Source of the DNA: Paratrimastix pyriformis
Lineage: Eukaryota > Preaxostyla > Paratrimastigidae
Assembly: GCA_027972325.1 (NCBI GenBank)
Contig: JAPMOS010000018.1
Span: 1 to 64,000, forward strand
DNA length: 64,000 nt
Direction of reading: 5' to 3'
This document shows, piece after piece, positions 4,021-64,000 of the stretch. Below the pieces are notes generated by a model. It saw only the letters and a program-made list of their open reading frames with translations. It was not told the DNA's origin and ran no database searches. How positions within the stretch are numbered: position 1 is the first letter of the stretch; each line of letters begins with the position of its first letter. The position numbers were made by a program, and so were the translations under genes.

Positions 4021-6743
4021 ATGGAGCAGGCGAACTGTGGTGCCTTCTTCCGGGAGCTCCTCCATGCTGTGGGTCCCCTCTTGGGTCCTCAAAAGGTACA
4101 CAAAGCGATTCAAGAAGGGCGCCGCTTTCTCTTGACCTCAAACCCCCTCACCATCTTTGATGCCCTTCTCGCTCGTAACTCATCCTCGGCCGGAGAGGCT
4201 CTCCTCGAAGAATGCCGTGGGTTCGCACGCGGATCTGGAGTGACCACGTTTTCTGTCCTGACCTCTCTCTTTTACGACACGGCCATGAGGCTTCTTGAGG
4301 CTGGTTTTGATCGGTCACTCTTTCTTGGGGTTATGTCCTTCATTCTCTTGTCATAGCTTCGATATCATCGATGAATGGGATGAATGTCTTGCCTTGGCCG
4401 AAGAGCACCTCGCCCAGTTGACCTTTATCCCCCCAAGTCCGGCGGTGTTCGACAGCCCTCACCTCCAGCGGCTGATGCTCCAGGCCCCGCACATTTCTGG
4501 GGATGTCGTCGAGGGACTTTCCATGAACCCAGGAGGTTCTTCAATGTCAAAACCCCTCGTTCCGGCACGAGAAATTTTGGGTGCCCTGGTGGATGCACTG
4601 TCACACGGAAGTGACCCATTGGCCGCGGAGGCTGTCAAGCAAGCGGTGGCTCATCTCCTATTGAAGGTCTGCCACGCTCTCGCTTTCTTCGCCACTCGGA
4701 ATGGCCCCCACGAGTGTCCTCCCGCACACGCCTGTTGTGGTCATGCACTCCCCACTCATCCGCCATGTACTCTCAATCCAGCCATTGCCCTGGGATCTTC
4801 GTTTGGTTTCAGTACACTGTATCAGCACGGGGAACAACGCCCGGATCGGTGGCTCTCCTTCGAACTCGGTGCCCCTGGGCGGCGTGGTGGCAATCGTGGG
4901 TGCCGTTGTTCCGATTCACCCGGGGCAAGGCCCCGCGCTGCGTGACCTCCTCGGCCACGCACCCGCCTGCGTCCGGGTCGTTCTGGTGGAAGGTGACCTG
5001 GTGCGTGTCGGCAACTCCGCGGGAATGGGGCTGCTCTCGGTCCGCCAGTCGCGCCTTGACGGTGCTGATATGCAGACGATCGTCGATGCTTCCATGGAAC
5101 GGTCTGCCGATCCTCTGCCCGGCCATCCACTGACTAGCGTCTATTCGCGCCCAGCTGGGCTGCCTCAATCATGGAACTACTAGCGGACTTGTCGACTTCG
5201 CTGGCCACCTGCACGGGTGAGGGGCAGCACTGTGAATCTGGCGGGGTCGCCGGTGGTGGAGCGCTCGTCGTCACCACTGGCCGTGTGGACCCCTTCCTGG
5301 CTCGTCGGGCCGCGTCACCCCGAATGCCCGACGGGCCGTCTCTCTGTATCCTCGAGGGATGTGGCCCTCGGATTGTGGCCCAATTGGGGGCTGCCCTGCA
5401 TCTTCGTATCCACAGTGCCGCCCGGCTCTGTTCGACGCTCGTTTCTGCGGTGCCTGCTCCTGCCCCAGGTTCGGTGGGCATCCCGGTTATCCCTGCAAGT
5501 GCGACTATCGGCAGGGATCTGGGTGCCCCACATTCTGTTGGGTGGGCATCGGCAACCTCGGCTGCGGCAGCTCTTGCGGTCTGTGTGGCTCCGAGTTGGG
5601 ATGCTGTTTTTTGTTCTCATCTTCCGGCAGTCCGCCGAGCTGCTCGACGGTGGTTGGATGCCAGCTGATATGAGGTCATTCATGAATCCGGCCACTGATC
5701 TGGTCTGTTCTCATGGCCACTGATCTGGTCTCTTCTCATGTCTACGGCCCGGCCGGCTCTGATCATAGGAGACTGGGCAGCTGTTTCTTTGCCTGACTCC
5801 TCACCCCCACGTGGATGCCGCCGGTTCGATGACGACTCCAGGTCCGTCCCCGTTTGTGGTCTTCTCCATTCACAGACATGTGATGTGTGTCGAGTGTCTG
5901 TTTTACTGCGCCATCCGGTGCTCACGCATGCCGCCGACACGGTGCAGCCACAGTTTGAGACCCTTCTCCAGCGGACCCTCTCGAGCCTCACGGTCTGTCA
6001 TGCCGATGGGGCACCTGCCCAAGCCGCCGCGTCGCGTGGTATGGGTTAGCCTCATTGTGGATTCTGCTCTCCCGCCCAAAGGATGGGATGCTTCCCGGAG
6101 CGGGCGCTTGGCAAATGTCGCTTGCGAAGGACCTCCGGGCCGCTCCGAAGGTTCCCCAACAACGGGATGTGGACCGAGCGGGCGGCGATGCTGAGGATGT
6201 TGGAGATGGGGCCGGCGGCGAGTCGCATGGGTGTCTCCAGCCAATCCGCCAGTGCATAAGGGCTCACTTTGCCAACGTGTTGGAGAACTGCTTGGCGCTC
6301 GTGCTGGAGGTCAGCCTGCCTCTTTGTCATGGGCCTTATCGTCGTTCTCCTTCCTCTCTGCGCAGAACTGCGGTCTTTCCGCGTCCGAGATTGCAGCCCG
6401 GCTCACCGAGACGTGCGCAGATGGATTGGCGGAGCCCGCACCAACCACACTGCCCGCACCGCCCCAGCGGCCCCTCTCGCTCGTGTGGTGGCCTGTCCGG
6501 GGGTCGCTCCCACCGCCTGGCCAGGCTACCCCCGCCCTCGCTCTGGTTGCGCGCGAGTTGGCCTGCCCGCTCCAGGACTGTAGCCCTCCTTCTGTCCATG
6601 ACGTCATCCGAGCCGTGGTGGTGGATGAAGCACGGGCCACGCGGGAAGCTCTCCGACGGGCCGTGGGCTTTGTGACGACCCTGCTGCGCCTGGACCGGGC
6701 AGTCGCCCCGAAGGCGTTCGCGCCATCATCCGCACCGGCATGA
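4021..6743 (+). CDS. CCT/BBS-type chaperonin-like protein
   Basis: Multi-exon gene related to group II chaperonins, most like the divergent MKKS/BBS10/BBS12 branch that helps assemble the BBSome. Exon 1 carries the N-terminal chaperonin pattern: a GPLLGPQK start, then GSGVTTFSVLTSLFYDT at the place of the usual GDGTT ATP-site motif. A 43-nt intron (4314-4356, GTCACT...TAG) joins this to DIIDEWDECLALAEEHL. The sequence around 6080-6110 gives LPGAGAWQMSLAKDLR, matching the conserved VPGGGAxE segment. The last exon (to 6743) has the CCT C-terminal pattern ending TLLRLDRAV, like the usual ILRIDD. The catalytic GDGTT is degenerate (GSGVT), so ATP hydrolysis is doubtful, as in BBS chaperonins. The middle exons (about 4700-6230) are poorly resolved. 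Confidence 0.7.
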
Positions 6744-7031
6744 GCCCACGATTCAAGCAGCAGCCGCTCGTCTTCCCTTCTCTCATTGGAATGGGGAAAG
6801 ATGGAAAGAGGGAGCCAAAACATCAGGCAGAGACGCGTCGTCGTTCGGACAGCGAGTGGGCTGCCCACTGCCAAGAGTTGTTGCGCCGTGAGTGGCCGTC
6901 CGTCAGCTCATCCGAATTGCGACGAGGGGTCCGGCCGAGAGGTAGAGATCGTCGGGACGGGGGAAAGCAAGATGGCTTTGCCAGCATCGTATTTCAGACT
7001 GCTGGGAACGGAACCCGCCCCCATTGAGGCA

Positions 7032-7727
7032 TCATAGAGAGGCTGGAAGGAAGGGACGGAGCGGAAGATGCGAGAAAATCGTGAGGGAAGAGCCCTTCAG
7101 AAGGGGCGCTGTCCAGACCAAGACACGGGCCTGGACGGCCCCGTCATACGGGACCACCTTCGGGGGGCGGCAGCAGCACATGCCGCAACAGCAGCAAATG
7201 ATGCCAGTCCCAGCAGCGACCAGACTGCCCATGCCCACCAGACCCACGATGAGGAACACCCACCAGTAGTTGTAGACAAAGTCCTCCGTCATACAAAGCG
7301 GGGCAGGCACCTCCACACCGGGGAGCCGCAACAAGATCGAAAGCCCTCGCCTGGCGACAAGTGTGAATCGGGAGGTGAAGCCTGTGTTGATGTAGGCTTG
7401 GACCTCGAATGAGAAGACTGCAAAGTTCATGGTACATTCTCCAGAACAGCTCCCCGCGGCTGCCCCCCCGCGACCCTCGATGCTGAAGTTGAATGTAGCG
7501 GTGGAACAGAGTTTCTGGTTCAGTGGCCAGATCAAAGTTAAGCACGTATCCCCAATGGTGTAATTAGTCGTTCCGTTGGGGATGCAGCAAAAATATTGTG
7601 CATCTCCGACAAGGCACTTGGGCCCCTCGGTGGCGTTGCAGGGGGGGAAATGGGCAGGATCGCAACTCCCAAAGGCGCAGGTCAGCATGCCCAAAAGGTA
7701 GAAGAAAACTGAGAGGCTGATTCGCAT
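7032..7727 (-). CDS. Small cysteine-rich single-pass membrane protein
   Basis: The ATG at 7727 gives a clear signal peptide (MRISLSVFFYLLGMLTCAFG). A lumenal or extracellular domain of about 140 residues follows, with many cysteines and N-glycosylation sequons (NAT, NGT, NYT, NFS). Next comes a transmembrane helix (WWVFLIVGLVGMGSLVAAG) and a striking cytoplasmic CCCCGMCCC cluster that could be palmitoylated. I do not recognise the family. The tail after PPKVVPYDGAVQA may contain an intron, so the last residues are uncertain. The neighbour on the other strand starts 101 bp away. Confidence 0.6.
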   Translation of the reverse strand: MRISLSVFFYLLGMLTCAFGSCDPAHFPPCNATEGPKCLVGDAQYFCCIPNGTTNYTIGDTCLTLIWPLNQKLCSTATFNFSIEGRGGAAAGSCSGECTMNFAVFSFEVQAYINTGFTSRFTLVARRGLSILLRLPGVEVPAPLCMTEDFVYNYWWVFLIVGLVGMGSLVAAGTGIICCCCGMCCCRPPKVVPYDGAVQARVLVWTAPLLKGSSLTIFSHLPLRPFLPASL

Positions 7728-7828
7728 GTCATGCACAACAGGAGGACTCGGTGAAGGAGAAACCGCCGGCTCGACTTTGGGACGTGCTCCTGTGGGTGAT
7801 TTTGCCTGATTCGGGTGAGGCAGGCAAC

Positions 7829-8583
7829 ATGGAGAATCTTTCGCCGCAGAACACGATGGCATCGGCCTCGGCTGCTCCCGCTCCGACCATAAATCTGAGT
7901 CCCCGCCTCATAGCCGACTTTCGGAAGGCCCGCGAGTTTGCCGAGAGAACCCACCGAGGGGATGTGGAATGGATTCAATCCAGGACCACTCTGGTGGAAC
8001 TCTTTGACGACTTTTTCGAAGTCTATTCTAACTATTTTTATTCGTAAGTTCACTCGACGTGCGATTTTCAGGAATATGTCTACGTCGTCGTAGCATCGGG
8101 GTTCCGAGCCATCCACGCAGCTCGTCTCTGTCCCCAATTAATTGCTTGCCGGGGCAATGTCCCAAAGATGCTCAAAGTCTTCGGCAACCAAAAAAAGGTG
8201 GAGGCAATCGGGGCTGTTTGGCGCATGCGTTCGAAATGGCCCGCACTGCGAAAGGTCTTTTCCCCCACATTCTTGGCGGCGGACACAGCGGTTTCTAGTC
8301 GTTTACTTCTGTGGATTCGCTCACTCAACTTCCTCGAATCGGGCCCATTGTCAAGTTCCATTTGGCCCGAAATATCGGGATCCGGTCGGTGGGGAAGCCC
8401 GACCTGCATCTGGTCCGGTATGCAAGCGCCTTGGGGTACCCGAACTGCCAGGAGATGGTCGAGGCTCTGGCCCAACACGAAGGGCTGGCGCCAGGAAGCA
8501 CCGACTTCATCCTTTGGATCTGGCTTTCCCACAACCGGGGCAAGGAGAACACCTGCTGTCATGACGGTTATAAGCTGCGCTGA
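7829..8583 (+). CDS. Helix-hairpin-helix DNA-glycosylase-like protein
   Basis: Exon 1 starts at ATG 7829. The following parts read EYVYVVVASGFRAIHAA and, further on, VFGNQKKVEAIGAVW. The final exon carries LPRIGPIVKFHLARNIGI and KPDLHLVRYASALGY and stops at 8583. The LPxIGPxxxxHLAxNIG...KPDxHLVR pattern is typical of an HhH-GPD-related group of predicted DNA glycosylases best known from bacteria and phages. The protein should bind DNA in base repair. The first intron appears to run from a GTCTAT donor after DDFFE to the AG just before GAATATG. The change of frame near 8295 needs either an unrecognised junction or a small sequence error, because only an impossible 8-nt intron fits. The exact family is inferred from motif memory. 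Confidence 0.6.
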
Positions 8584-8655
8584 CGTGGGGTTTCCATCAC
8601 GGGCTCAGTTTTCCAGAAGATCAGAGAAGGCGACGATTAGTGGTGGTCTCATTGG

Positions 8656-10703: not shown

Positions 10704-10780
10704 ATGGCCCGGGGAACGAGAACGTCCCCAACCGGCGTGAAGGAGTATATTGCTCTGAGGTGTTTGATTCTCTTCCTCTG

Positions 10781-12370: not shown

Positions 12371-12496
12371 GGCTTCATTGAGTCGAAAAAGTCTCCGAAC
12401 GGCGAACCGCAGTAAAGGGTTAGAGGATAGTTCCCCGGGTCAAAGAGATTCTTCTCTATTCTTTGATTTTTCTTCAACTGTCATCGTGACAATAAG

Positions 12497-14058
12497 ATGG
12501 GGCAATCTCCCAGCAGTGAGAAACGGAAGAAAGCTCTCGATGACGCGGACTATCGGCTCTTCAGGTCCACAGTCGCGCAGCAAAAGGTTTCCAAACTCCC
12601 TCCTGATGGGCGGTGGTTCCCGAATTTTCTGCTTCTTCTTTAGGCTTGCTTCGGAATGGATGAAACGAAGATTTGGAAATATTTTGATTTCGGCCCCCAC
12701 GAAGCCACCCCATTGGTGTGCCTGCACTCCACTGCCGGCACGGCAGACTGCTTCTATCGGCAGTTCAACGAGCTTGTTGGTCGAGGTGTGCGCCTTGTGG
12801 CGGTGCAGTTTCCTGCCTACTCGACTCATGACGAATGGATCCAGGGTTTTGATGAACTCCTGGATCATTTGCACATTACTAAGGTCGGCTCTTCCCTGAT
12901 TCGCCCTCCCATGATGGTTGGTAGTGCCACCTTCTCGGAGCCTCTCTGGGAGGTTTCCTTGCCATGTTGTATGCGCGGTTCCACGGTTCTCGGCTGGGGT
13001 CGCTCTTCCTCGTCAATTCTTTCTATGACAACGCCACCCTCCGCGCTCCCTTGGATCAGTTCGACTTCAGGTCTGATCCCTCGGACACCTTCCTTTGGGT
13101 GGTTTGGTCCAACAAGGATCGACAGAACGTGGGGACCCAAAAAGAAAAGAAAGATTCGCACGCACACACTCATCCGCACTACTCGATCCTCCTCGTTTCC
13201 CCAGTGCAAGCTTCTTGCTGAAGCGGAGCATTCTGAAGAACTTCGCTACGGGCAACTTGGAGGAACGTATTGCGGACTCGGTGGACTTCATGGTGGACAT
13301 GATCGACAGCCTCTCCCGCGAGGAGGTGGCGTCTCGTCTCAAGCTCAACTGCGGCGAGGCCTACGTGGGCACTCCCCAGGTTCCCGAGGAGAACATCACG
13401 ATTCTCGAGGTCTGCCGGGTTCGGGGCCTGTCTCAGACTCCTAGCCTGGGCCATTCGGGATGGGAGGGCGGCGTTCATCCCGACAATTCACCATTATATG
13501 CCCACCTTTTTTCCGGCTCCGCCACAGACCCTCGACTACAACGCGGTTCCCGAAGGGCTCCGCGCGCAATTACGAGAGCGCTTCCCGGGGGCCAAAGTTG
13601 TCTATATGAAAACTGGTGGCGACTTCCCGTATCTGGCTCGGCCCGACGAGGTCAACATGAATATCATGGTCCGTCAATGGCCACTTCCTCGTCCGCAGCG
13701 CCTCATTTCCCATTCAAAGGTGCACCTGAGGCGCGTCGACGAATACTACCGTGGCCGCACCGTCGCGGCATCTTCCGTCGCGGCATCTTCAGCGGCTTCT
13801 GTTCCTTCCACGATAGCACCCGCACCCGCACCCGCAACCGCTCCCGCACCGGCGGCTCCTGTCTTCGTCCCAGCCGCGGCGGTTGCCGAGACTGCTGCTC
13901 CCGCCCCCGGATCGCCCACGAGCCCTCCGCCCATCCCCAGTACTGCCGTGGGGGATGTGGAATCCTCGGCGGAGCTCCCGCCTGCTGCCCCCGCCGCCCA
14001 CGTGGAGGAGCCATCTGCCCCTTCCCCCACCGCCGAACCCTCCGCCGGTGCCGATTAG
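12497..14058 (+). CDS. SPG21: Maspardin (SPG21/ACP33), alpha/beta-hydrolase family
   Basis: Exon by exon this matches maspardin: DETKIWKYFDFGP, a GTADCFYRQ segment, FDELLDHLHITK, HLLGASLGGFLAMLYARF, FLLKRSILKNF, ADSVDFMVDMIDSL and KTGGDFPYLARPDEVN. Maspardin is a pseudo-hydrolase on endosomal/trans-Golgi membranes. The nucleophile elbow reads GASLGG, as in the human protein. Introns begin GTTTCC, GTCGGC (12884-12924, 41 nt), GTCTGA, GTCTGC and GTCCGT. The C-terminus is unusual: after VDEYYRGR comes an Ala/Pro/Ser-rich tail of about 100 residues, absent from animal maspardin, ending at the stop at 14058. It follows the hydrolase gene in tandem. Confidence 0.92.
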
Positions 14059-14171
14059 CCGTGGGACCATCTGCTGAATAACATTGGTGTCTGGTGGGCC
14101 CCGCACCACCTTGTTTGCGTGTTTTCCTCGAAGAGTGGTCGGGACGAGGCCGAAACCCTTCTTCTTATTCT

Positions 14172-20431: not shown

Positions 20432-21179
20432 TTACTGTTTCGAGGGGGGACATCTCTCGTGGCGGAGCGGGTAGTCAGGATAGAAGGGATCAAAAGGCAT
20501 GGCCGGGCTCTCGTAGGAGAGATAGAGAGTCATTGGGTTGGCCAATTGCTTGTGCTTAACCGGGAAGATACTGGGACGTCCACCCATGGTCCGGCAAACG
20601 AAGTCGCTGAGGGTGGTACTCGTGATCATCGCTATGGGGGTCTCTGGGGTTCGGGCGAGCAATTCGCACGCCTGAAGGAAGGAGCCCGCAGTTTCGGTGT
20701 TCAAATGCGGGGGATCGCCAAAAACAAAATCGAAAGTATGGTGGAGGGACTCGGGGATGTTCAAGGGATTATTGCAATCTGGCGAGGTAAAATGGTGAAA
20801 AGGGCAGTTGGAATATATGTCAAAAGACCCCAATGTGTAAAGTCGTCGCCATAGCATGCGAATCGGTCGTCAAATTCAAAAAGATGGACAGTATTGGGAA
20901 CAAGCCGCTTCTGCGCAAGGAAATAGAGGGACGGGGCACTGAGAAAAGCGATGCGTCCGCCATTTGATGCCCGAATAGCCTCTGTCAACAGAGCTTCCGT
21001 CGTTTCCTGGGAGAGGCATGAATCATGGGACCACGGAGGAGGGTGGCACGGACTTCTGTGTACCAGAACTGGTTCAATGACCAATCTTCGGCTTCCGAGT
21101 TTTTTTCTTTGTTCAACCCAGCCAAAACTTCGTTCAAGGCAGCCAGGGTCGCATCGGAAAGGCGCAAATCGCTCTCCAT
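20432..21179 (-). CDS. EEF1AKMT1: EEF1A lysine methyltransferase 1-like (N6AMT2 family)
   Basis: SAM-dependent methyltransferase of the N6-adenine-MTase-like fold that in animals and fungi methylates elongation factor 1A. It starts MESDLRLSDATLAALNEV at 21179 and continues WSLNQFWYTE. A 47-nt intron (21053 down to 21007, GTCCGT donor) follows, then ETTEALLTEAIRASNGGRIA, FLSAPSLYF, HLFEFDDRFACYGDDF, FDFVFGDPPHLN and IFPVKHKQLANP. The catalytic motif reads DPPH where the family usually has DPPY. The end carries an extra tail (DPFYPDYPLRHE...). Part of its 3' half is duplicated near 33.68-33.89 kb. Confidence 0.9.
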
Positions 21180-25290: not shown

Positions 25291-26854
25291 GGGGAGGAGG
25301 AGGATGGATGCCGACCTCGGGGAGTGCTTGTTTGACCTGTTGAGCGGCCTGCAAAAGGACCTTGGCAGCCTCCCTGTGGAGGGGGCACTGGGAGATTCCA
25401 TCGAATGCTCCCTGAATCCCGTCGGCGAGGACGATGGTGTGGGTCTCCAGGTCGACCATAACCTCCCAAAGTCCCTGCGGATTGTCGCCTTCTCCTCGCA
25501 TGAGGGCCTTTGCGATCGGGCTGCAGGTGCCCGCCACGAGGCCCCGCTGAGGCCTCCCCAGGGCTGTCGGGCCTGCCAGAACACCGCCAGGGCCCAACAC
25601 GACGGGAGTGTTGGCCGCGCCTGCTTCACCGTGGGCGCATGGCAGTAGATCCGTCGTCTGTTCAGTCGGGCTGCACAGGGTCCACGTGGAGGTGGAGGTG
25701 GAGGTGGAGGTAATTCGCAGGAGCGCACGGCATACGGGCGCAATGCACACAGCAGAAAGCAGGCTAGACAGCAAAGCTGAAATACCTCAACTCGGGCAGA
25801 ATGCAGGCGACGAATAATGCCCAAAACAGCAAGTAAGAAACTGCCTCAAAAGGAGCGCATCTTCCGAAGCGAAAAAAAAGCACGGGAAGGTCCCAGGCAC
25901 GCATGTGTGGACGCACGGGTGGGTGGTACGCACGGGTGGGTGGTACGCACGGGTGGGTGGTACGCACGGGTGGGTGGTGACGCACAGACCTCAAGGTCAC
26001 GTAAGGACGCAGCAGCTCCCAGTTCTGCCGATGGAATGCCAACAAAGGGAAGGCGCTAAAGAAGGAGGCGACCCATCGTTGAGAAGGGGCGGAGAGGCAC
26101 GGAAGCCGACCGGAGAAGGGAGAGCAGCTGGGGAATGGACGGCGCATAGATCAGAACACTCCTGCAGGTGAGAGCCGCATGCCACAGGAGCACCGCCTCT
26201 CCGCCAAAGGGCCCAGTCAAGTCTGTTGGACACGAGACGCGCGGATGAGGGTCAGCACCCACAGGATCCACCTCGAAACAGACCCACCAAAGGTGTCCTG
26301 ATGAGCGATTTGCGCTGGTCGGTGGCAGGGGGAGGAGCGAAGGGTTCCCCCCGAAAGCGGCATGATTCGGTAGCCATGAGACGCAAATACCTGGTGTGCC
26401 AGGAATATAAGTTGATACCCACCGCAACCACAGACGAGGCCAGAACCTCGGGGGGGCGACCTCCCTCAAGATATACCGTGCTCAGCATCTTGACCACGCA
26501 CCCGTACCGTTCCGGGTTAAAAATCTGTTCATTTCATTGAAAAGTGGGGGGATTCCCGAACGAGGAACTCGGGACCTTCGTCAAGAGGGAAACTGAAACG
26601 ATATCAACCGCAGGGAGCGGATCGGGGGTTTCAGAAGAGAACCCCTGGTGAGGAACGGAAACGGTGACCGTGTAGTGGTACCATTGCTTCCACTTTGAAA
26701 AGAGGAAAGGGGTTTCGATGTTGTCTGCATTGATTTGGGAGCGCTCACGGAGAATTTGTTCAAAAGCAGAGGGAACGTTCGGAAAAGCCCACACAAGATG
26801 GGTCGCGCCCCCAGTGTCCTTCTCGAAAATGGCAAGGCCCTCAAGTTCCTCCAT
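24827..26854 (-). CDS. DENND10: DENND10 (FAM45) DENN-domain protein
   Basis: Late-endosomal DENN protein. The ATG at 26854 gives MEELEGLAIFEKDTGG, then HLVWAFPN, PFLFSKWKQWYHYTVTV, and IVSVSLLTK joined across a 51-nt intron (GTCCCG donor at 26575) to IFNPERYGCVVKML. Later exons give PFGGEAVLLWHAALTCRSVL, FHRQNWELLRPYVTL (the conserved WHRQDW position), GLWEVMVDLETHTIVL and REAAKVLLQAAQQVKQAL. The last exon reads LATSFHICSKLIPLSRQQAA and stops at 24827. The exon order matches animal DENND10 throughout. One intron holds the GGGACA repeat at 25207-25290 (CCCTGT on the sense strand) and another a 17-bp repeat at 25915-25980. Confidence 0.85.
25207..25292. repeat. Intronic (GGGACA)n repeat
   Basis: About 14 perfect GGGACA hexamers inside a DENND10 intron; the sense strand reads CCCTGT. 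Confidence 0.92.
25915..25981. repeat. Intronic 17-bp tandem repeat
   Basis: Four copies of a GTGGGTGGTACGCACGG unit within a DENND10 intron. Confidence 0.9.
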
Positions 26855-40183: not shown

Positions 40184-41820
40184 ATGGAAAAGAAGCTCCC
40201 GGCCCATTTGGAGGAACAGCGTCGCTTTGTCCATGTTGGAGAAGAGTTCCCTTCCGATGTCCGTGCATGGGACGCGATTATTCCGAATTAACTCTTCCTC
40301 TGTCAGGCAACCACCCTTTCTGGCGCAGACACTTTTCAAACACTGGGGGTCACCCAACACTGGGATTTAAAGGAGTTTCAAGAACATTTTAAGTTCGAGA
40401 TTCTTCGCCTGACCCCCGATGAGATCCAATTCGATTTAATCGGTATTGATCCCGCGATCGCCAACGCTTTTCGGAGAATATTGATCGCCGAGGTCCGTTT
40501 CTCTTGCGCTGCCGTTCGCCGCATACATCTTTTTCCAGATTCCCACAGTTGCAATCGAAACCGTCTACGTGGAGAATAACACCTCTGTGGTTCAGGACGA
40601 GGTCCTCGCCAACCGTCTCGGCTTGATTCCCATTCTTGTGAACCCTGCTCTTCTCCAAGATCGGAAACGTCTGCATTTGCCGATCCCTCCCCTTCGCCTT
40701 TGTGTTCTGTTGGGCCTGGGGGAGTGGCCAGGCAAGTGAGTGCCGACCACTGCCTCACGATTCCTTCTGCCACAGCGGGAGACGCGCCCACAGACCAGGA
40801 CACGATCGTCTTCAAACTGAACGTCAAGTGCACGCGGAGGCCGGGGATCCCCGAAGACAGCGCCAACGAAGAGAAGTTCGTCAACTCCTCGGGTCCGCTC
40901 TGGTTCCTCCACTCCTCCGCTCCTCTCCCATCCTCTTCACTCCTCTCCCATCCCTTCCTCTCCCATCCATCCCTTCCTCTCACAACCCATCTCATCCCTC
41001 CTCTCCTCTCCTCTCCCATCCCATCCCCTCTTCTCCCTCCTCGCTCCCTCCTCGCTCCCTCCTCGCTCCCTCCTCGCTCCCTCCTCACCGCCCGTTCACC
41101 TTGCTTGCTTGCTGTTCGCAGTCTACAGCGGGCAGCTACAGTGGATCCCGTTTGGGGACCAGCAAGCCCGCTTTGGGGAGTGCCCTCCGCGGCCCGTCCA
41201 CCACGACATCCTCATCGCCAAGATGCGCCCTCCCCAGGCGATGGAGCTGCAGTGCTTCGCCATCCGGGGCATCGGCAAGGACCACGCCAAGTTTAGCCCC
41301 GTCGCGACGGCCTCGTACCGGCTGATGCCCCGGGTCCGCCTGGCCAAGCCCGTCGAAGGCCCCGCGGCCGAGTCGCTCAAGGAGGCCTGCCCGCTGGGGG
41401 TCTTCGACATCGAGGACGGTCCGTCGGCCTGGCGCCCCGTCGGCACGTCGCGCTTCTTGTCTGCTCTGCTCTGCTCTGCTCTAGGGCACGCCTTTGTCAA
41501 GAACGAGCGCAACTGCAGCATGTGCCGCGAATGCATTCGCAGTGTGTGGCGCGACCGCCTCGGGGCCGAGGAGAGCGCCAAGCTGAAGGATGCCGTCTCG
41601 CTGGGCCGCATCAAGGACCACTTCATCTGTCCGGCCCGGCCTCGGCCCCAACTCCATCCCCCAACCCCCGGCGGCTTTCTTGATCTCACTTTTATTTCGT
41701 GCTCGCGTAGTTACGGTCGAGAGCTCCGGGATTCTGTCGCCGGAGACCCTTTTCAAGCAGGCCCTCGAGATTCTGATGGCCAAGCTGGAACGGATCGAAG
41801 GGGACCTCCTGCAATTGTAA
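40184..41820 (+). CDS. POLR1C: RNA polymerase I and III subunit AC40
   Basis: Alpha-like subunit shared by RNA polymerases I and III. It starts MEKKLPAHLEEQRRFVHVGE at 40184. Intron 1 is 40259-40306 (GTCCGT...CAG, 48 nt), intron 2 is 40493-40538 (GTCCGT...CAG, 46 nt), and later donors read GTCCGC, GTCCGT and GTCCGG. Conserved blocks: IGIDPAIANAFRRILIAEIP, VYVENNTSVVQDEVLANRLG, FKLNVKCTR, HHDILIAKMRPPQAMELQC, GIGKDHAKFSPVATASYRL and [21 protein letters not shown] cysteine-rich insert (CSMCRECIRS) lies near residue 270. The stop is at 41820. It aligns with human POLR1C end to end, which makes its exon edges a good reference for splice sites. Confidence 0.97.
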
Positions 41821-43214: not shown

Positions 43215-43715
43215 ATGAATGTGTTTGTGATCGTGGGGAAGGACGACAACCCTATTTATCAGGCTGCTTTCATCTCACAACCCAAAGGAGTCTGCTTTTT
43301 GCCCTTTTGCCACTGACACTTCATTATGCCGCGCGTTAGTCCACAGAGTTGTGTCATCTCCACCAATTTTTGATCCATGCAGCGCTCGATTGCACAGACG
43401 AGCAAGTTTGGACAACAAACAGTCTCTTTTTGAGAGCGGTGGATTTTTTCCATGAGATGCACACATCAGCCTACGTGACGCCGGGTCACTGCCGTTTTAT
43501 GATGCTTCATGACCAACCGAAAATCGAAGACAATCTGAAAAACTTCTTCTTGGAGGCACACGAGCTCTACTTGAAGGTCTCCCCCGCCGCCTGATGGCAA
43601 TGGCCCACTTTCCACATAGGTGATCCTGAACCCCTTCTACGAGCCTAACACCCCCATCACATCGCCGGCCTTTGACGCCAAAATCCGGGCGCTTGGCAAG
43701 AAATACCTCTCCTAA
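43215..43715 (+). CDS. TRAPPC2: TRAPPC2 (sedlin), TRAPP complex subunit
   Basis: Three exons reconstruct a complete sedlin, a small longin-fold subunit of the TRAPP tethering complexes acting in ER-Golgi traffic. Exon 1: [19 protein letters not shown]. Intron 43290-43341 begins GTCTGC (52 nt). Exon 2: [40 protein letters not shown] and [19 protein letters not shown]. Intron 43577-43619 begins GTCTCC (43 nt). Exon 3: [19 protein letters not shown] and ALGKKYLS, with the stop at 43715. The length is typical. It starts 121 bp from the divergent MARCH-type gene. Confidence 0.95.
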
Positions 43716-51817: not shown

Positions 51818-52590
51818 TTAGATGTCGCTGTCGTCCTGGATGGCCTCATTGTGGCCCTCCCGCAACCGGGCAACCTCCACCGCGTAGAACTGGGCTCGTG
51901 GCGCTGCGGGGGGGGGGGGAGGGGGGAGGAGGAGGGGGAGGAGGGGAGGCACGTGACAACCCAGCGTTGAGCCTGCACGGTCCTGGAGCCCGTGGCCATT
52001 GCAGCTCCGAGGGCACAGACCGATGACGGTGTTGGTCTGACTGTAGCCCCGGCGGGAGTCCACCCGAAGGAGCGTGCCCATGTTAAAGTCCTTCACCTTG
52101 TGTTCCCATGTCAGAAGGAATGGGCGCCATTGATCCTTGGCTGCAGGGCTTTTCATGTCCGCGTCCGAGAGGGCCTGGACGTTCATCGTGGGGAAGATGG
52201 CTCGAAACTGCTGATATATTTCATCATCATGGCTGAAAGTGTCCCTGTAATGACGGTTTAATGTGTCCCGCTGACAGACGGAGTCAGGCGCAGCCCGCGG
52301 CGATCCGGGATGGACATAACGAGCTTGAGATAAGTCTGAGCAAACTTGGCGGCACGCTCGGCCCAGGCAGCCTCGAGACGAGCATCATTGGCAACCGAGG
52401 CAGAATCCAATCGAGCACGATCAGCCGCGGACATGGTGCGTGGATCGGCTGCCTGGACAACGACGCGTTGTTGCTGGGCCATAAAGAAGGGCGGTAGAAC
52501 CGGGGGAGCGGTTCGATCTGACGGAATTGCACAGATTTCCTCCAATTGCACAGCGCTGAGGTGGAGAAAGAGGATCTGTTCCAAGCTCAT
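51818..52590 (-). CDS. PBDC1: PBDC1 (polysaccharide biosynthesis domain-containing protein 1)
   Basis: ATG 52590 (MSLEQILFLHLSAVQLEEIC), or possibly a later Met. The conserved core reads DARLEAAWAERAAKFAQTYL and RRGLRLTP. A GTCTGT intron then joins to DTFSHDDEIYQQFRAIFPTM, AKDQWRPFLLTWEHKVKDFN, MGTLLRVDSRRGYSQTNTVI and, after a second GTCTGT intron, AQFYAVEVARLREGHNEAI, with the stop at 51818. This matches PBDC1 throughout its conserved domain. The family name is historical: the protein is small and cytosolic, and yeast and human work links it to chaperone/ribosome functions rather than sugar synthesis. The acidic C-terminal tail of animal PBDC1 is missing. Confidence 0.92.
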
Positions 52591-52670
52591 TTAAAGACAA
52601 AATTACAATAACACAACTTGGTCCCGCGACCATCCTGCGTCACGCCAACGAGATTGCCTGCCCTTCACAC

Positions 52671-54978: not shown

Positions 54979-55009
<31 letters not shown>

Positions 55010-56440: not shown

Positions 56441-56591
56441 ACAAAAGGAAAAGAAAGACGTTCACACATTTCCCACAACACGTCAAAAGAACCGAGGGGA
56501 TCGACAGAGAGACAGGAGCGAAGAAGCTCCCGTTGACTTGGCTTGGCAACGCAAAGTCAAAGTACAGAGAGACGGGGAGAAAACAGTTTTT

Positions 56592-59500
56592 TTACAGCCG
56601 ACGGAGGACAGCCGGGGCGGGGGTCTGGGGCATGGCTTGCTGGGCGCCGCAGAGCTGCGCAGCAGGAAGAGAAACCGGGACAGGAGGAGCAGGTGGCGGT
56701 GGTGAGGAAGGGTGGTGAGGAAGGGTGGTGAGGAAGGGTGGTGGTGGTGGGGGCCGACCTTGATGAAGGAGCACACCTGCTCGGGCTTCATCTCCTGGGC
56801 CAGCAGGGAGATCAGGGCGGGCCCGTAGGTGGCCACGAAGTCGTCGCAGACGGTGGTCAGGGTCTTGGGCAGCAGGGCGCACACCTTGTCCAGGGCCGCC
56901 TCGATGGCCGCCTCGGAGCGGTTGGTCTGGACGAGCTGGTCGAGCTCAGTGACGACCCACTCGCAGACGGCGCACTGGATGCTATTCACGGCGGTGGTCT
57001 TGGGGCACACCTTGATCAGGCTGCCCGGGCGGGGGGGGGGGGGGGCAGGTCAGCGTGACAGCTCACAGGGAAAGGCCGGGGAGGAGGGAGGGGGCTGCAG
57101 ACGGACGCGCAGATGGCGGCGGGCTCGAGCTTCTGGACCAGGGCGTCGATCAGGACGGGGGCGTACTGGCGGACGAGGGACTTGCACAGGCCCTGGGCGG
57201 GGGCGGGCACGCGGGCGCACACCTTGTCGAGGGCCGCCTCGACGGTCTCCTTGGAGCGCTCCGAGCCGAGCATCTCGTCGAGCTTGCCCACCACGAAGTG
57301 GCACAGGGGGCACTCAACGTCCACGTCAACCGCGGCCGCGGACTTGCCGCAGAGGCCGATGATCTGGCACACCTTGGCAGGGTCGACCTTCTTCACGAGC
57401 AGCTCGATCAGGACGGGGCTGAAGGGACCAAGGCCAGTCAGGACGGGGAAAGGGGCGACGCGGCGGGGGCAGACGTGTACTCCTCGACAAAGGCGTCGCA
57501 CATCGAGTGGACCGAAGAGGGCAGCCTGGGGGGCGGGGCCAGAGGGGCCGAGAGAAAAGGAGGACGAGAGGGGAAATCAGGTCAGATGCCCACCGCGCGG
57601 CGCACTCGACAGGGCGGGGCCGATGACGGACCGGTCGCAGACGGCGTCGAGGGCCTTCTCGATCTCGGCCTCGGTGGAGTTCTTCTCAACGAGGTACTCG
57701 AGCTCGGTCATGACCCACTCGCAGACGGCGCACTGGATGCTGTTCACGGGGGCCTCCTCGACGGCCGGGGCGCACAGGCCCAGGTGACTGCAGACATGTT
57801 CGAACAAATCCCAGAAGGCGGGTCAGGCCCCGAACCACCAGCCAGCCAGCAAGCGGAGGTGGAGCGACAACCGGGGGAAGCGGACAGACGTGCAGACAGC
57901 CTCGATGGGGATCTTCTTGAGGAGGAGGTCAATCACTGCGAGGACCGGGGAGGGGAGAGATAGTCAGCCCACAGTCGAGCGGGGGGGGGGGGGCACGGAC
58001 CGAGGGGGGTGTACTGGTCGACGAGCTGCTCACACATGCCGGAGACGGTCTTGGGCAGCTTGGTGCAGACGGCGTCGAGGGCGTGCTCGATCTCGGACTC
58101 GGTGCTGTTCTCCGAGACCAGCTTCTCCAGCTCGGTCATGACCCACTCGCACAGGGTGCACTCGAACTTGCTGGCAGCGACCTTCTGCGACTTGCCGCAC
58201 AGGCCGATCTGCGGAGGCACAGGGCATGGATGAGATGAGACTCCGGCCGGGACCAACCGAGTCCGACAGACGAGGGTGCAAATCTTGGCGGGGTCAGTCT
58301 CCTTGACGAGAAGCTCGATCACCACGGGAGCATACTCCTCGACGAAGGCTGCGCGAGGGGGGTCGGAGGTCAGGGACGGAAACACGAAACGGGCAGACCG
58401 TCGCACATGGAGCGGACAGAGGCCGGCAGGCGGGTGCACACCTTCTCGACGATCTTCTCGATCTCAGCCTCGGTGGCGTTCTCCTGGATGAGCGTGTCCA
58501 GCTCGGTCAGGACCCACTCGCAGACGGCGCTGACGGGAGGGGCGGGTGAGGCGCACCACGAAGGGGAAGAGCAGACCATTGGATGGTATTCTCGGCGGGG
58601 GCAGGGACAACAGGAGTGGGAGGAAGCACGTTCTCAGTGCAGAGGCCGAGCTTGTGGCAAATAATGTTGGGGTCGGCCTCCTGGATGAGCATGTCAATGA
58701 TCAGGGCGCCGTACTCCTCAACTAAAAAAATAATCCGCCAACATGAGGACCAGCGGGGGGTAAAAAGAAACGAATGCCCGGACCAAGAGCGTCGCACTGG
58801 GCGGAAATCCCCTTGGGCAGGTGGGTGCAAACGTTCTCGACCATCTTCTCAATCTCAGCCTCAGTAGTGTTGGAAGAAATCCAAGACTCGAGGGTGACCA
58901 GGATCCAGCGGCAAACGGCGCACTCAGCAGTGATCTCGACCTGAGGGACCGACTTGTTGCAGAGCTTAATCTGGGTGCAAATGGTCTGGGGGTTCTCCTT
59001 GTCGACCAGGAGTTGGATAATCTCAGGGCCATACTGCTCAATGAGATCGTGGCACTAAACATTGAAAAAGGAAGGGCAAGATCGAGTTTGGCTCATCACA
59101 TGCAACAGACCGGGCCCTGAATGAAGCCAGGAAGGCGGGAGCACACCTGCTCAACGGCCTTAACAATCTCCTCCTCGGTCTTGGCCTGGGTCAGGAAAGA
59201 CTCGAGCTCACTCATGATGAACTGAGGCGAAAAAAGCATAAAAAAGAACCTCCAAAAAAAAGGCGAACCTGGCAAACAGTGCACTCGAGAGAAGGGGTAT
59301 GGACGGGCGCGGGCTTCGAGGTACCACAGAGGCGCATGGTCTTGCAAATCTTATCGGCAGGAACATCCTTCACGAAGAGATCAATGAGTTGAGGGGTATA
59401 CTCCTAGAAACAGTCACCCCAAAAAAAAGTCATCAAAGGATGAGAGACGAAAAAAAGTCGACCCGAACAGACATCGATAAAGCTCTTGCAAATGGGCTGC

Positions 59501-59700
59501 AGAGCCTTCGGAACATACATGCAGATTTTCCCAACGATCTGCTCGATTTCTGTTTCAGTGGCGTTCTCCTCAATCCACTTATCAAGCTCCTGGACCACAA
59601 ATTCGCAAACACTGCATTCTACCTTTCCGTTCTGAGGCGCAGGAACGGCGGCAGCGAAGATTGCGGGGAGCAACAGAGCAAGCAAGAAAAGGGAACGCAT
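56592..59700 (-). CDS. Prosaposin-like precursor with eight saposin B domains
   Basis: Signal peptide MRSLFLLALLLPAIFAAA at 59700, then eight saposin B modules, each with the CxxC...C...C...C...C spacing. The first halves begin ECSVCEFVVQELDKWI, ECTVCQFIMSELESFL, ECAVCRWILVTLESWI, CEWVLTELDTLI, CTLCEWVMTELEKLV, CAVCEWVMTELEYLV, CPLCHFVVGKLDEML and CAVCEWVVTELDQLV. Second halves follow the pattern VEEYAPVVIELLVKETDPAKIC. The protein ends in a short proline-rich tail, stop at 56592. Saposins bind and disturb membranes or present lipids in lysosomes; in phagotrophic protists they can act as pore-formers or digestion aids. Introns split most modules after the same residue, with donors GTCTGT, GTCTGT, GTCCGG and GTCTGC. 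Confidence 0.9.
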
Positions 59701-60037
59701 TTCGATGATGGTTCCGCCCTGGTGAATAACCCAATACCCGTTTGCCGGCCTTGCCGCAAGTCTTGACATGACTTCCCAACCGAGCGGCTCACATTGTCGT
59801 CTGGCCAAGGGAGTGGTCCTTGAAATAGCCACTGAGGCGGCCAGGGTGTCCGTGGCGCCGGGTTATCCCGAATCACGAATCAAAGCGCGTGGTAGGAGCA
59901 ACCGGCGCTCGAAGAGAAATTGGGTATTGTTGCTCTTCTTCGAAATTCACAAGCGGGCAAGGAAGCTGAGGTGATGATGGAAAAAGAGGGAGAGGAAAGA
60001 GAAAATTCAAAAACAGGCTCGAACACTCGCCGAACGT
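59701..60037. other. Intergenic region between two minus-strand genes
   Basis: About 340 bases without a supported gene. It should contain the promoter of the saposin gene and the 3' end of the SSR1 transcript. Confidence 0.45.
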
Positions 60038-61035
60038 TTATTCGGAGCGAGGAGAGCGAGAGCGAGACGGGGAGCGGCTCTTCGAGGCCTGACGCTGCCT
60101 GGGCTCGGCGGCGGTGCCCTTCAGCCACTGGTCGGTTTCAGTCGCGGGTTCGTCGCCGGTCTTCGGGGCACTCTTCGTCCTCTTTGACGACATCATCTCC
60201 ATGACAGGCTTGTACCCGAAGATGCCGAGCATGACCACAGCGGCCAGCCCGCCAAGATAGCCGAAGAAGGTCTTGGTATCGATTTTGTCGGGGAAATCAG
60301 AAAACTCGAAAGTACCATTGTAGGCAATGTTGCTGAAGTTCTTCCCGGCCTGATGATTGGGCGAAATCGGAACCAGATCGACATGAGGTGGTGTCATTGT
60401 GAAAACAGCAGACCTCGTCATGGTAAAAAACAGCAATAATCATGCCCATGGTGCGGGGTTCAATACGAGGATCGGCCTGGAACTTGTAATGAACAGTCCA
60501 CTCCTCCTCAGGGCGGACGGTGATGTTGTAGTCGAAGTCGGTGAACTAAAGGTCAAGGTCAAACAATGATTCAGGATTCCGTTGCGCGCCCAGAGGAGAT
60601 GAAGAGAACAGATGGCCGTGTCGTGCAGACGTTCTGGTAGTACATGTTGAAATCGTAGGGAGAAGTCAAGGCACCAGCGACATTGGTCACAATCATCCCA
60701 CTGGAGGCATCGTTGGCCACAGTAACAAGAGCGTCGACAATATCGCCAGGGTGGAACTCTGAAAACACAGCAGCAAAAGAGCATGATGACAATGACAAGG
60801 AGGATGGGAAAAAATACCAGACTCTTGTCGGCACTGATGGGAGGGAAATGGCAAGCGGCCAAAACATCAGGATGGGCCGAAGGCATATTGGTCAGGATGT
60901 GGGGGGGGATGACCTGATCGGCAAAGGCAGCTGTGAAAAATAGGGGGTAAAAAAAAGTGTCAACCCTCAGAAACGCAACCAAAAGCGGGGAGATCTACCT
61001 GTCAGGAGGAGGAGGAAGGCGCAGAGGAGCCGCAT
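60038..61035 (-). CDS. SSR1: Translocon-associated protein alpha (TRAP-alpha)
   Basis: ER membrane protein of the TRAP complex beside the Sec61 channel. Signal peptide MRLLCAFLLLLT at 61035. An intron with donor GTAGAT (one of the few GTA donors) leads to AAFADQVIPPHILTNMP. The lumenal domain reads FHPGDIVDALVTVANDASSG, NVAGALTSPYDFNMYYQN, FTDFDYNITVRPEEEWTVHY, KFQADPRIEPRTMGMIIAVF, then a sequon-containing NGTFEF. A transmembrane helix (FFGYLGGLAAVVMLGIFGY) and a cytosolic tail ending SKSRSPSRSRSPRSE follow, stop at 60038. Two other introns begin GTCTGG and GTCTGC. The RS-like tail is unusual for the family, though cytosolic basic tails are common. Confidence 0.88.
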
Positions 61036-61220
61036 CACTGCAACAGATCGAAAATGACGGGGTGAAGCGGACACCGAGGCGACATGACACGAATTCCTGG
61101 CGATTGTTGGTTTCGCTCGATTTTTTTGTCTTCTTTCGCGAACAAAAACGTTACGTAATTTTTGACACAAAGGAAAGCCCAGGAATTATTCACTCTCGGA
61201 TAAAAATCGGAATGCCTCGC

Positions 61221-62974
61221 CTAAACCGCGGTGGATTGAGATTGACAAGGACGATTAGAAGGAGCCGTAGTTATCACAGGAGGAAGATCGGGTTCGGCCA
61301 GAATTCCATCGAGAATGGCAAGCAGTGTCCGGATACCAGAAAGATAATCCTAAAAAGTGGTGGTGTAGGACTTCGTTGGGGGCAAATCAGACCTCGTCGG
61401 GGACTCGTGTTCGAGAATCCATCGCTGGAAGCCGGGTTGCGTGCGCAAAATCGACTATCCGGACGTCCGTCGAGCAAACTAAATCATCGGCAGGTCTGGG
61501 CATTCCAGAACCACGGGTCAGAAAAGAATAAAACGAATGCGACTTCAGGTGCGTGTGAGTCGTTGTGTGCGTGTGAGTCGTTGTGTGCGTGTGAGTCGTT
61601 GTGTGCGTGCGTGCGGGGAGGAATCAGAAATACTGTGTCTGTGACCGACCGTTCCTCAGGGCCGGCGACCATCACTCCATCATAGACGAGCAGCAGGGAG
61701 GAACTGTAGAGGCGATGTGACCGCTGGCGGGTGAAGAGGGCCTCGATGCGAGAGATCTGGGCGCGGACGATCCGGACAACCTCGCGGCATAGACGGTGCC
61801 CGTTATGGAAAAACTGTCGCACTGTGCCGGGGAAAGCCTCCTTCGAAAGGGCCCGTCCACAATGACGATCCAGGCACATGTAGCAAAGCGTTGTGGATTG
61901 GTAGACCTACGCGGCACACCACAAAGAGCTCGGATGATGACGAGGGGCGGACGGGCGCTTGATGGCGCAGGTCTTCCTCCTCCCTTCTGCGCCCACTCGC
62001 CATCAGCTCGCCCTCAGCTCACTGGCTCCGTTCCTTCAAGGCAACCCATTCGACACGATGTGAATCTCGGACTGCGGGCTGATGGCGTGCGGGTGGCGTG
62101 CGGGTGGCGTGCGGGTGGCCGTGCGGGGTGGCCGTGCGGGTGGCCGTGCGGGTGGCCGTGCGGGTGGCCGTGCGGGTGGCGTGCGGGTGGCGTACGGGTG
62201 GGTAGGGCAGTGCGAAATGTGCTCCGAATGTAAGCCGCTCGAGACAGAAGCCCCACAGCACAGACCTGCATCCCGCATATTCTCAGGCCCAGCGACCCGG
62301 AGGTGGTGGTCTGCGAGCGGAGGGTGTGCGATCTGTCCGAACGAGGGATTGAAAGGGTTAATATCGTAATGGAAGAGAAAGCACGCGGGCAGGGCACCTT
62401 GGCCTCCCAGACCGTATTTTGTGGGGTGGCGCATCATCATCATATTGCCGTGTCCCCACCTTGATATCCAAAACGCAAGGCCGCTGAAATCCCGCGGTGA
62501 TATCTTGAATCATCACATAATCTCCGACCAATGATTGAGGATGGGAGGGCCGATCCGAGGCAGAAAAGGAAGAGAGGGAACATCGTGTCACACCGTAATA
62601 CACACATGTAAACGAAAGAAACTCGGGAAAGAATCGAAGAGACTCGTAAAAATCGTACTCCTTTTGGTCAAATGGCTTGAGGATGATTCCTCTTTTGCTT
62701 GATTTCAGGAGGATCTTGTGACCCCCAACTTGGTGCGGGTAGAGACAAATCGTCGCCATAATTTCATTAATTTTCCTGGCCTGGGCGACTGGTTTCGGAT
62801 CGACAGTCCTCCTGAAAAGTTCAAACGAGTGCCGCGACCAGAGAACCGTGCTCGCCCAAGGACAAGAAACACAACTGCCGGAATTGGACCCCACTCGACT
62901 CTGACGGGTGTGGGCCTCTCATCTTTTCCAATGGCCCCGAAGTCCCTCCCCTTGGCTCCACCAACGCTGCCCAT
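61221..62974 (-). CDS. Inositol polyphosphate kinase (IPK/IP6K family)
   Basis: Phosphorylates inositol phosphates using ATP. The N-terminal exon probably starts MGSVGGAKGRDFGAIGKDER near 62974. Conserved parts: YPHQVGGHKILLK, GIILKPFDQKEYDFYESL and FPEFLSFTCVYYG. Then comes the signature PCVLDIKVGTRQYDDD (PxxxDxKxG), GLRICGMQV, a helix RLCREVVRIVRAQISRIEAL, SSLLLVYDG and TDVRIVDFAHA (the second metal motif, DFA). After a GTCTGA intron DYLSGIRTLLAILDG leads to the stop at 61221. The arrangement fits IP6K or an IPMK relative; which one cannot be decided. One intron contains the 62085-62205 minisatellite. Confidence 0.87.
61553..61612. repeat. Intronic GTGTGCGTGTGAGTCGTT repeat
   Basis: Three copies of an 18-bp unit between exons of the inositol polyphosphate kinase gene. 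Confidence 0.85.
62085..62205. repeat. Intronic GTGCGGGTGGC minisatellite
   Basis: About ten copies of an 11- to 12-bp GTGCGGGTGGC(C) unit inside the inositol polyphosphate kinase gene; the sense strand is C-rich. Confidence 0.9.
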
Positions 62975-63117
62975 GCCCACTCAGAGTTCCCAGAAAAATG
63001 ATGCGAAATAATTGTCGTGTTTGGACTCTGGCGAGAGTCTCGGGGTCAGTTCACCGAGAAGCTTCCACCTTTTGAAAGACGGATGCCGATGAGGGCAGTC
63101 TTTATAATAGATAATAG

Positions 63118-63118
<1 letters not shown>

Positions 63119-63152
<34 letters not shown>

Positions 63153-63153
63153 A
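63119..63153. repeat. Poly-C tract
   Basis: A C homopolymer of about 33 bases just beyond the 3' end of the last gene, in the short spacer before the kinase start. Confidence 0.93.
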
Positions 63154-63178
63154 GAACCCACGAACGCCTGGGAGGGTA

Positions 63179-64000
63179 TCAGCCTGCCGATTCCATGGCC
63201 GGTTGTGGCTGTTGCTGGGGCTGTGATTGATGTTCTTCGGGCCTTGCCTTTTTGAAGTCTTCATTCTGTGGCACCGCGTGCTCCTCCTCGAAATTGGAGG
63301 AGGCCAACAGTGTGCGGGCGTGCTTGCCCAGCAACGAGCTGCCTTCTGCCAATTGGCTCAGAGTATTGCCGAGGGTCTGCTCACGCGCAACCACGGCTTC
63401 TTCTAGAGCCGTGATGGAAGCCTGACAACAAGGAGTCCAGGGGAAGGGTTGCGCGGAGAGCAGACCTCGAATTGCCGATAGCGCTCGTCATCCGAGGCAA
63501 CTTCTACGTCAAACGGGCGGAGAGAAACTACCCGTCACTGTCAGCGGACATCAGGGGCATGCGCCAAGGCTGACCTGGGTCGATGCCAGCCTGCTGGAGT
63601 TTCCGTTCGTATGTGGCTGACCTCAGATTGCTGGCTTTGAGGTCAGCGGCAAGGGTCTCGCATCGTTGGCAAAGTTCTTTCACCTGCATCTCAAGGGCTG
63701 TAATCTTCTCCTTCTGCTGGGTGATCGTATCGGTTGCCTTGGCCAGATCATCTTCCTTGCTGTGACACCTCTGTTGCCAGTCTTGTAGGAGGGTTGCTTG
63801 GCTTTCCTCAAATTCTTTGCGGAGCCGCTCCACCTCCGAGAGGGGGACGACCTCTGCGGGCTTTTCCTCGGTCCGCGGGGCGGGGCTCTGGAGGGGCGCA
63901 GTTGTTGGGCGAGCGAGCCGACTGGCAGGCGTTCTGGAAGCAACAAAGCTCAGAAAGTCCCTGTTACGCTGCAAACAGACGAGGGCGGACGCATCCTTGT
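63179..64000 (-). CDS. Coiled-coil protein, cut by the window edge
   Basis: The 5' end lies beyond the window. Visible exons read NRDFLSFVASRTPASRLARP, EVERLRKEFEESQATLLQDW, DTITQQKEKITALEMQVKEL and RCETLAADLKASNLRSATY, then after a GTCCGC intron DDERYRQFE, and after a GTCTGC intron ASITALEEAVVAREQTLGNT. It ends in a Q/P-rich tail with the stop at 63179. The middle is a strong coiled coil of about 90 residues. The family is unknown; a cytoskeletal or centrosomal role would be only a guess. Confidence 0.65.

Follow-up and report, generated by a model that had tools for sequence, protein, structure and literature searches.

The code by which the major (U2-type) spliceosome recognises the start of introns has very probably been changed in Paratrimastix pyriformis, a free-living protist (Preaxostyla, Metamonada) whose donors (5' splice sites) begin with GTC and whose U1 small nuclear RNA (snRNA) genes carry a 5' end to match. 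The third intron base (+3) is a purine in most eukaryotes, and nucleotides (nt) 5-6 of U1 are two U's, which are pseudouridines in humans and yeast. The affected site in U1 is one that seldom changes elsewhere among organisms. The DNA under study, the window, is the whole stretch of 64,000 nucleotides C90:1-64000 (61.6% GC), and searches covered the genome of 56.06 Mb in 495 contigs (61% GC). The P. pyriformis genome has been described as a draft assembly of 56.6 Mb in 633 scaffolds with 60.9% GC and 94% completeness according to Merqury (PMC10703272; this and the other papers cited by PMC number are quoted from partial text).

Donor letters of mapped introns

Two public P. pyriformis proteins, RPAC1 (encoded by POLR1C) and WASHC4, were placed on the DNA as exact translated segments, and all boundaries reproducing the protein were enumerated without applying a GT-AG rule. 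A single GT-AG solution was obtained for each of the 32 introns, and all of them start with GTC, comprising six of six in RPAC1 in the window and 26 of 26 in WASHC4 on contig C112. The RPAC1 protein joined from the window exons shares 99% identity with the public protein P0001. The public gene models come from Augustus after retraining on curated genes, RNA-seq supplying hints on introns (PMC10703272); RNA evidence enters them, yet they are no proof of individual junctions. The available text of the same paper contains the word "intron" only twice, in the methods and in the title of a reference, and no statement on donors was seen there.

A wider checked set of 36 introns includes two introns each of TRAPPC2 in the window and of SNRNP27K on contig C9, whose boundaries were set from reading frame and homology (by eye for TRAPPC2) with the hypothesis known beforehand. 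Splicing at both GTC donors of TRAPPC2 produces an open frame whose product matches human sedlin (E=8e-43), the alignment having a gap of two residues located two residues past junction 1 and none at junction 2. Both donors of SNRNP27K are GTC as well (GTCTGC, GTCGGG), and the product aligns gap-free at both junctions. The rewriting of the 5' splice site to GTC, as proposed in a preliminary description of the window, is thus supported by 32/32 motif-blind introns and by 4/4 introns placed by homology. The relevant features of the window are:

40184..41820, plus strand: POLR1C / RPAC1 gene, seven exons (P0001 maps at 40184-41817)
40259..40306, plus strand: POLR1C intron 1, GTCCGT / CAG (motif-blind mapping)
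40493..40538, plus strand: POLR1C intron 2, GTCCGT / CAG (motif-blind mapping)
40669..40775, plus strand: POLR1C intron 3, GTCTGC / CAG (motif-blind mapping)
40893..41121, plus strand: POLR1C intron 4, GTCCGC / CAG (motif-blind mapping)
41419..41484, plus strand: POLR1C intron 5, GTCCGT / TAG (motif-blind mapping)
41629..41710, plus strand: POLR1C intron 6, GTCCGG / TAG (motif-blind mapping)
43215..43715, plus strand: TRAPPC2 (sedlin) gene, three exons (homology to human sedlin)
43290..43339, plus strand: TRAPPC2 intron 1, GTCTGC / TAG (reading frame and homology)
43577..43619, plus strand: TRAPPC2 intron 2, GTCTCC / TAG (reading frame and homology)
12884..12889, plus strand: candidate maspardin donor GTCGGC (letters only)
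21048..21053, minus strand: candidate EEF1AKMT1 donor GTCCGT (letters only)
26570..26575, minus strand: candidate DENND10 donor GTCCCG (letters only)
4314..4319, plus strand: candidate chaperonin-like donor GTCACT (letters only)

All eight donors to which the preliminary description had assigned coordinates read as given there, the letters alone being checked for the four at 12884, 21053 (minus), 26575 (minus) and 4314.

The strong donor positions are +3C and +5G. Among the 32 motif-blind introns C occupies +3 in every case and a purine in none (G is also absent from +3 in all 36 checked donors), while G is found at +5 in 29/32 and at -1 in 23/32. The hexamers are GTCCGT (11), GTCCGC (7), GTCTGC (4), GTCCGG, GTCAGG and GTCTGT (2 each) as well as GTCGTC, GTCCCC, GTCACC and GTCGGT (1 each). 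This refines the pattern YGY previously suggested for +4 to +6: at +6 T is enriched (14/32, p=8e-4), whereas position +4 is mostly C (21/32), and its T content (6/32 against 5.9 expected) corresponds to the background. The acceptors read CAG in 26/32 introns, and there is one intron per 45-59 codons. No clear consensus for the branch point was seen among the 32 introns.

The base following GT is C in 32%, G in 42%, T in 19% and A in 7.5% of cases in a sample of 264 kb, and the chance of C in 32/32 introns is p=1.4e-16 against this background and p=1.2e-11 against the C-rich positions +9 to +30 of the same introns. Provided that RPAC1 and WASHC4 are typical, donors with another base at +3 are bounded below about 9% (95%). 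When the GTC donor was compared by homology with every frame-preserving GT-AG splice within 60 nt, it scored best or tied in 29/32 cases and was uniquely best in 28; the three misses were outscored by GTCCTC, GTGAAC and GTGGGC. The relatives used were the RPAC1 of Monocercomonoides and, for WASHC4, MMETSP P0122 (450 identities over 1177 residues, global alignment), and 30/32 junctions lie in gap-free aligned blocks.

A gene-finding hidden Markov model (HMM) written for this analysis was applied to the 264 kb, consisting of the window and 200 kb of contig C112 (5 kb masked), and was told only that introns run from GT to AG. Its first pass without donor training (233 introns) already revealed C in 49% and A in 6% at +3, with GTCCGT and GTCCGC as top hexamers. 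After training (468 introns) +3 was C in 75% and A in 1%, +5 was G in 65%, and the consensus was GTCYGY; starting from a canonical CAG|GTRAGT matrix the model reached the same endpoint (461 introns, fractions of 0.75 for C and 0.01 for A at +3). The reversed sequence gave 77 introns at first and then drifted to a GTAGTA repeat. Donors resembling GTRAGT at other positions, the outcome that would have spoken against a rewritten splice site, were seen neither in the mapped introns nor in the gene-finder runs.

In the noisy HMM set -1G and +5G co-occur (p=4e-8), and nothing clear emerged on a dependence of +4C/T on other positions. An HMM-predicted MPI protein matches a mannose-6-phosphate isomerase in the PDB (E=4.9e-27) and was left out of the donor set. 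Hexamer enrichment near the ends of open reading frames (ORFs) gave no information: the four GTCYGY hexamers were all absent from the top lists, an effect that we ascribe to shadow ORFs in DNA of high GC content. The candidate DNAJC13-like protein c33 gave no match as a source of introns among 8000 scored candidates.

U1 genes and their predicted pairing with the donors

A search with the Rfam U1 model RF00003 detected at least eight U1 loci on eight contigs (E 3.7e-13 to 2.0e-10; full length 1-166), the number being a lower bound since the best 41 of 992 candidates were scored. The copies are near-identical across 156-157 nt, and nt 1-58 are identical in 8/8. All eight loci start with ATACAGACCTTG and have the 5' end AUACAGACCUUG, the canonical AUACUUACCUG occurring in none of them. 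The P. pyriformis U1 reads 5'-AUACAGACCU with A and G at nt 5-6. The GATCAC loop of stem-loop 1 (SL1) is present in 8/8 (GCGAUCACACAGGC) and the Sm-type site reads AUAAUGUUUGG in 7/8 and AGAAUGUUUGG in the remaining copy. The P. pyriformis U1 matches RF00003 end to end, although with scores under the gathering threshold. P. pyriformis shares with the canonical system (ACUUACCU with AG|GURAGU) the SL1 loop, the Sm-type site, the presumed register, the GT-AG ends and the preference for -1G and +5G, and differs from it by AG instead of UU at nt 5-6, U instead of G at nt 11 and C instead of a purine at donor +3. Since nt 5-6 are A and G, pseudouridines are impossible there. Stem-loop 2 is predicted to fold with a small terminal loop of GAAA type, and the usual U1A site is not apparent in it.

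The preliminary description had expected a U1 5' end "something like ACGGAC". This anticipated the changed end and the U-to-G exchange at nt 6 that restores the pair with +3; nt 5 is A and not G, the actual letters being ACAGAC. An unchanged U1 5' end was looked for by pattern, and the canonical ATACTTACCTG..GATCA had no occurrence in the 56 Mb.

The motif CCCATAA is located 59-60 nt upstream of U1 in 8/8 copies, and in 4/4 U6 genes it precedes the matched start by 66-67 nt. It recurs in other places within T-runs and palindrome-like TTATGGGAC..GTCCCATAA stretches, so that it may represent a promoter element of general use or a repeat. The combination of CCCATAA with a downstream ATACNNACC was met at 15 sites, namely the eight known U1 genes and seven others at six places. 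These seven have no Rfam U1 match and no GATCA at the U1 position (one has GATCA at nt 116), and they were rejected, though not strictly excluded, as a second U1. Their 5' ends are ATACGGACC, ATACATACC, ATACCAACC, ATACGAACC and, at three sites in two places, ATACAGACC; ATACGGACC is exactly the 5' end that had been predicted. We take the seven sites to be chance occurrences: about six such sites are expected from base composition, although a control with the backward pattern gave none.

With the usual register, U1 nt 6 lies opposite donor +3 and nt 5 opposite +4. The C at +3 can pair because nt 6 is now G; a canonical U there cannot pair, and canonical U1 would mismatch 36/36 checked donors at this position. 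The mean predicted duplex energy over the 32 donors is -7.25 kcal/mol for the actual U1 and -3.95 kcal/mol for the canonical one, the actual U1 being better for 31 donors and worse for one. Of the 16 possible combinations at nt 5-6 the actual AG comes 2nd and UU 15th, and counting pairs over nt 3-6 puts the actual U1 in 10th and the canonical one in 86th place of 256. At +6 the preferred T is the partner of U1 A3. The preliminary description lists a few exceptional donors without coordinates, four GTT.. and one GTA..; a T at +3 could form a G-U wobble with G6 of U1. The case for co-evolution rests on +3, whereas +5 and +6 are as in other eukaryotes, and clear compensation, judged from the gene sequences, is seen at +3 only.

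Several observations weigh against a changed donor code with matching U1. The 32 introns come from two genes only, and the public models were partly trained on the organism's own donors. The U1 matches reach 50.8-60.2 bits and thereby stay under the Rfam gathering score of 69.5, with the best 41 of 992 candidates scored. GG at U1 nt 5-6 would pair better than AG (mean -11.0), and the ACGGAC end suggested earlier would out-pair the actual U1; CG (-7.02) and UG (-6.79) come close to AG, which indicates that the gain in pairing is due to nt 6 alone. The A at nt 5 mismatches the commonest donor base, +4C in 21/32, and with +4T at background the change at nt 5 is unexplained by compensation. The trained HMM is noisy, as it recovered 17/32 verified donors, and in the WASHC4 span 16 of its 28 introns have a verified donor, the 12 wrong ones also being GTC. 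Because these wrong introns start with GTC too, the frequencies of the trained model are biased, and it also retains 14-16% G at +3 compared with 0/36 in the checked donors; what is informative is its first pass, together with the fact that it converges when started from the canonical matrix.

According to the mechanism proposed here for GTC donors and matching U1, introns would keep their GT..AG ends while +3 becomes C, giving G|GUC(C/U)G(U/C). U1 C8, A7, G6, C4 and A3 would pair with +1G, +2U, +3C, +5G and +6U in the standard register, and A5 would pair with +4U and not with the commoner +4C. After hand-over the donor would meet an unchanged U6, with G44 facing +3C, C42 facing +5G and A41 facing +6U. 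Selection to maintain the pairing between U1 and donors presumably drove these changes, and they probably postdate the split from the oxymonads, one of which has a GUAUG donor. With the move to 61% GC, +3 may have turned from A to C and +4 from U to C, U1 possibly following at nt 6. U1 A5, which would match GUAUGU, may be older.

Other spliceosomal components and competing explanations

The pairing sites of U6, U2 and U5 look ordinary in their gene sequences. A compensatory change in U6, which the preliminary description had considered, was not found: the four U6 copies detected are identical and keep ACAGAGA (GAUACAGAGAAG), which places the rewrite in U1 and the introns and not in U6. GUAGUA of U2 is kept in the eight copies looked at out of ten matches, and for U5, of which seven copies were found, the single copy read has an intact loop GCCUUUUAC. 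A METTL16-like gene is represented on contig C332 by a partial open frame that best matches the U6 A43 methyltransferase (E=1e-11), the related psilocybin enzyme matching more weakly. SNRNP27K is present on contig C9 and keeps the methionine aligned with human position 141, a residue discussed in PMC10581693. No U1C was matched by Pfam or a human U1C query; since the finger may be split by introns, its absence is not claimed. The only zf-U1 finger found is WBP4-like (C86:24809-24943). Matches to the LUC7 family were observed at two places, on contigs C474 and C46. A single U12-like snRNA gene (C432:103343-103517, minus strand) with ATGAGTAAGGAAAATA suggests that the minor spliceosome is retained.

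The first seven bases of U1 (AUACAGA) are identical to the stretch AUACAGA of U6, which means that identical letters in U1 and U6 can read one and the same set of donor bases. A rather improbable extension of the proposed mechanism is that U1 has converged on the U6 box, one donor being read twice, before and after hand-over, and that the METTL16-like enzyme might methylate both U1 A5 and U6 A43. The idea of methylation at U1 A5 derives from the METTL16 target UACAGAGAA, whose first six bases, UACAGA, are also found in U1. The +4C faces A in both U1 and U6. N6-methyladenosine (m6A) is described, in the portions of the literature available, as disfavouring pairing with U; if U1 A5 and U6 A43 carry m6A, this would account for +4U not being selected although A faces +4. 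Should the convergence be true, it would represent a genome-wide change of the donor code in which U1 and most introns were altered to match each other.

An improbable explanation is a drift led by U6, in which high GC content and pairing with U6 moved the donors to GUCYGY, U1 pairing being of minor importance and the U1 change a relaxed drift. The mismatch of U1 A5 with the common +4C and the lack of +4T enrichment fit this scenario, as does the ability of U6 ACAG to pair with the CUGU of GUCUGU without any change; splicing without U1 RNA has moreover been reported for Entamoeba and Cyanidioschyzon (C. merolae), the sources being available in part. However, U1 is kept in at least eight copies with identical nt 1-58, and random drift of nt 5-6 would rarely improve the pairing of 31/32 donors or rank 2nd of 16.

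It seems very unlikely that a canonical U1 is present but missing from the assembly or from detection, the eight copies being variants for a few introns. The draft state of the assembly (94%, Merqury; PMC10703272) and the scoring of the best 41 of 992 candidates leave some room for it. Against this, no canonical U1 5' end was found by pattern, the copies on eight contigs agree, and a canonical U1 mismatches all 36 checked donors at +3.

That the GTC motif arises artificially from gene prediction or from GC-rich composition, with exon edges falling on frequent GTC triplets, is hardly credible. GTC does make up 32% of GTN in the genome sample and the introns are C-rich, but 32/32 GTC has a chance of p 1e-11 to 1e-16, GTC is best or tied by homology in 29/32, the public proteins are reproduced by no alternative GT-AG boundary, and the change in U1 does not depend on gene models.

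Donors of U12-type introns read RTATCC. The last alternative, that the GTC introns belong to the U12 (minor) type or form a class of their own, draws on the U12-like gene on contig C432 (44.9 bits, under the Rfam cut-off of 53) and has practically no standing, given that RTATCC donors are found in 0/32 introns, the acceptors are CAG in 26/32, all 32 introns of two ordinary genes are GTC, and the donor letters exclude the U12 type.

Comparison with other eukaryotes

The 5' end of U1 is among the most conserved RNA stretches in eukaryotes. In Saccharomycotina and outgroups ACUUACC was invariant in 236/236 species with detected U1, out of 240, and an exchange of the pseudouridine at U1 nt 5 to A was named as a possible compensation without being observed in that study (PMC10581693). 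According to the same source, loss of METTL16 and SNRNP27K in yeasts goes with +4U rather than +4A. In contrast, P. pyriformis keeps SNRNP27K and a METTL16-like gene, yet its +4 is mostly C and +4A is not preferred, which departs from the yeast link between the presence of these factors and +4A. It does not resemble the yeast-like +4U class either, as +3A is found in 0/32 donors, +4T is at the expected level and neither factor is lost.

The phylogenetically closest donor description found, within the partial text available, is that of the oxymonad Streblomastix with GUAUG, +3 to +5 being AUG (PMC1501061). Yeast and oxymonad GUAUGU donors share +5G and the GT-AG ends with P. pyriformis, whereas +3 is A there and C here and +4 is U there and mostly C here. 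The divergent U1 of Giardia lamblia, also a metamonad, retains ACUUAC (PMC3510501), and so does the nucleomorph U1, which is called "fully conserved" in Bigelowiella (PMC6461891); like P. pyriformis both have a divergent U1, but they are described as keeping ACUUAC even with differing or degenerate donors.

Fritillaria shows a genome-wide departure from usual donors with non-GT/AG introns, its U1 5' end being strictly conserved and the paper pointing to a duplication of U2AF and to m6A (PMC13326754), whereas in P. pyriformis U1 itself is changed. The diplonemid S. specki has an altered U1 gene as well, reported as a second U1 with a C-stretch variant beside a normal copy (PMC12621601); in P. 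pyriformis all eight copies found are changed and no normal one was found. Entamoeba resembles P. pyriformis in having a non-purine +3 in its lineage donor GUUUGU, but its U1 RNA was reported absent (PMC6085484, PMC13292270). With at least eight U1 genes P. pyriformis is unlike both this and the other U1-less spliceosome described, that of C. merolae. The species with altered donors in the available literature keep the U1 end, have a normal copy beside the variant or lack U1. A search of the literature, which covered few subscription papers and not the bioRxiv collection, found no report of a GTC donor code or of a U1 rewrite, although a description elsewhere is possible.

P. pyriformis would thus use the same splicing machinery with a rewritten recognition code. 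A U1 and introns that changed together represent a natural compensatory-mutation experiment, in which the contributions of U1 and U6 at +3 and +4 can be told apart. To judge from this case, a donor code may be rewritten across a whole genome, and the two conserved pseudouridines of U1 may be dispensable for splicing. Gene finders built on GTRAGT would mis-annotate the P. pyriformis genome. Long introns of simple repeats in C112:400001-600000, which resemble open frames (runs of H, P, S and I), also confuse gene finders.

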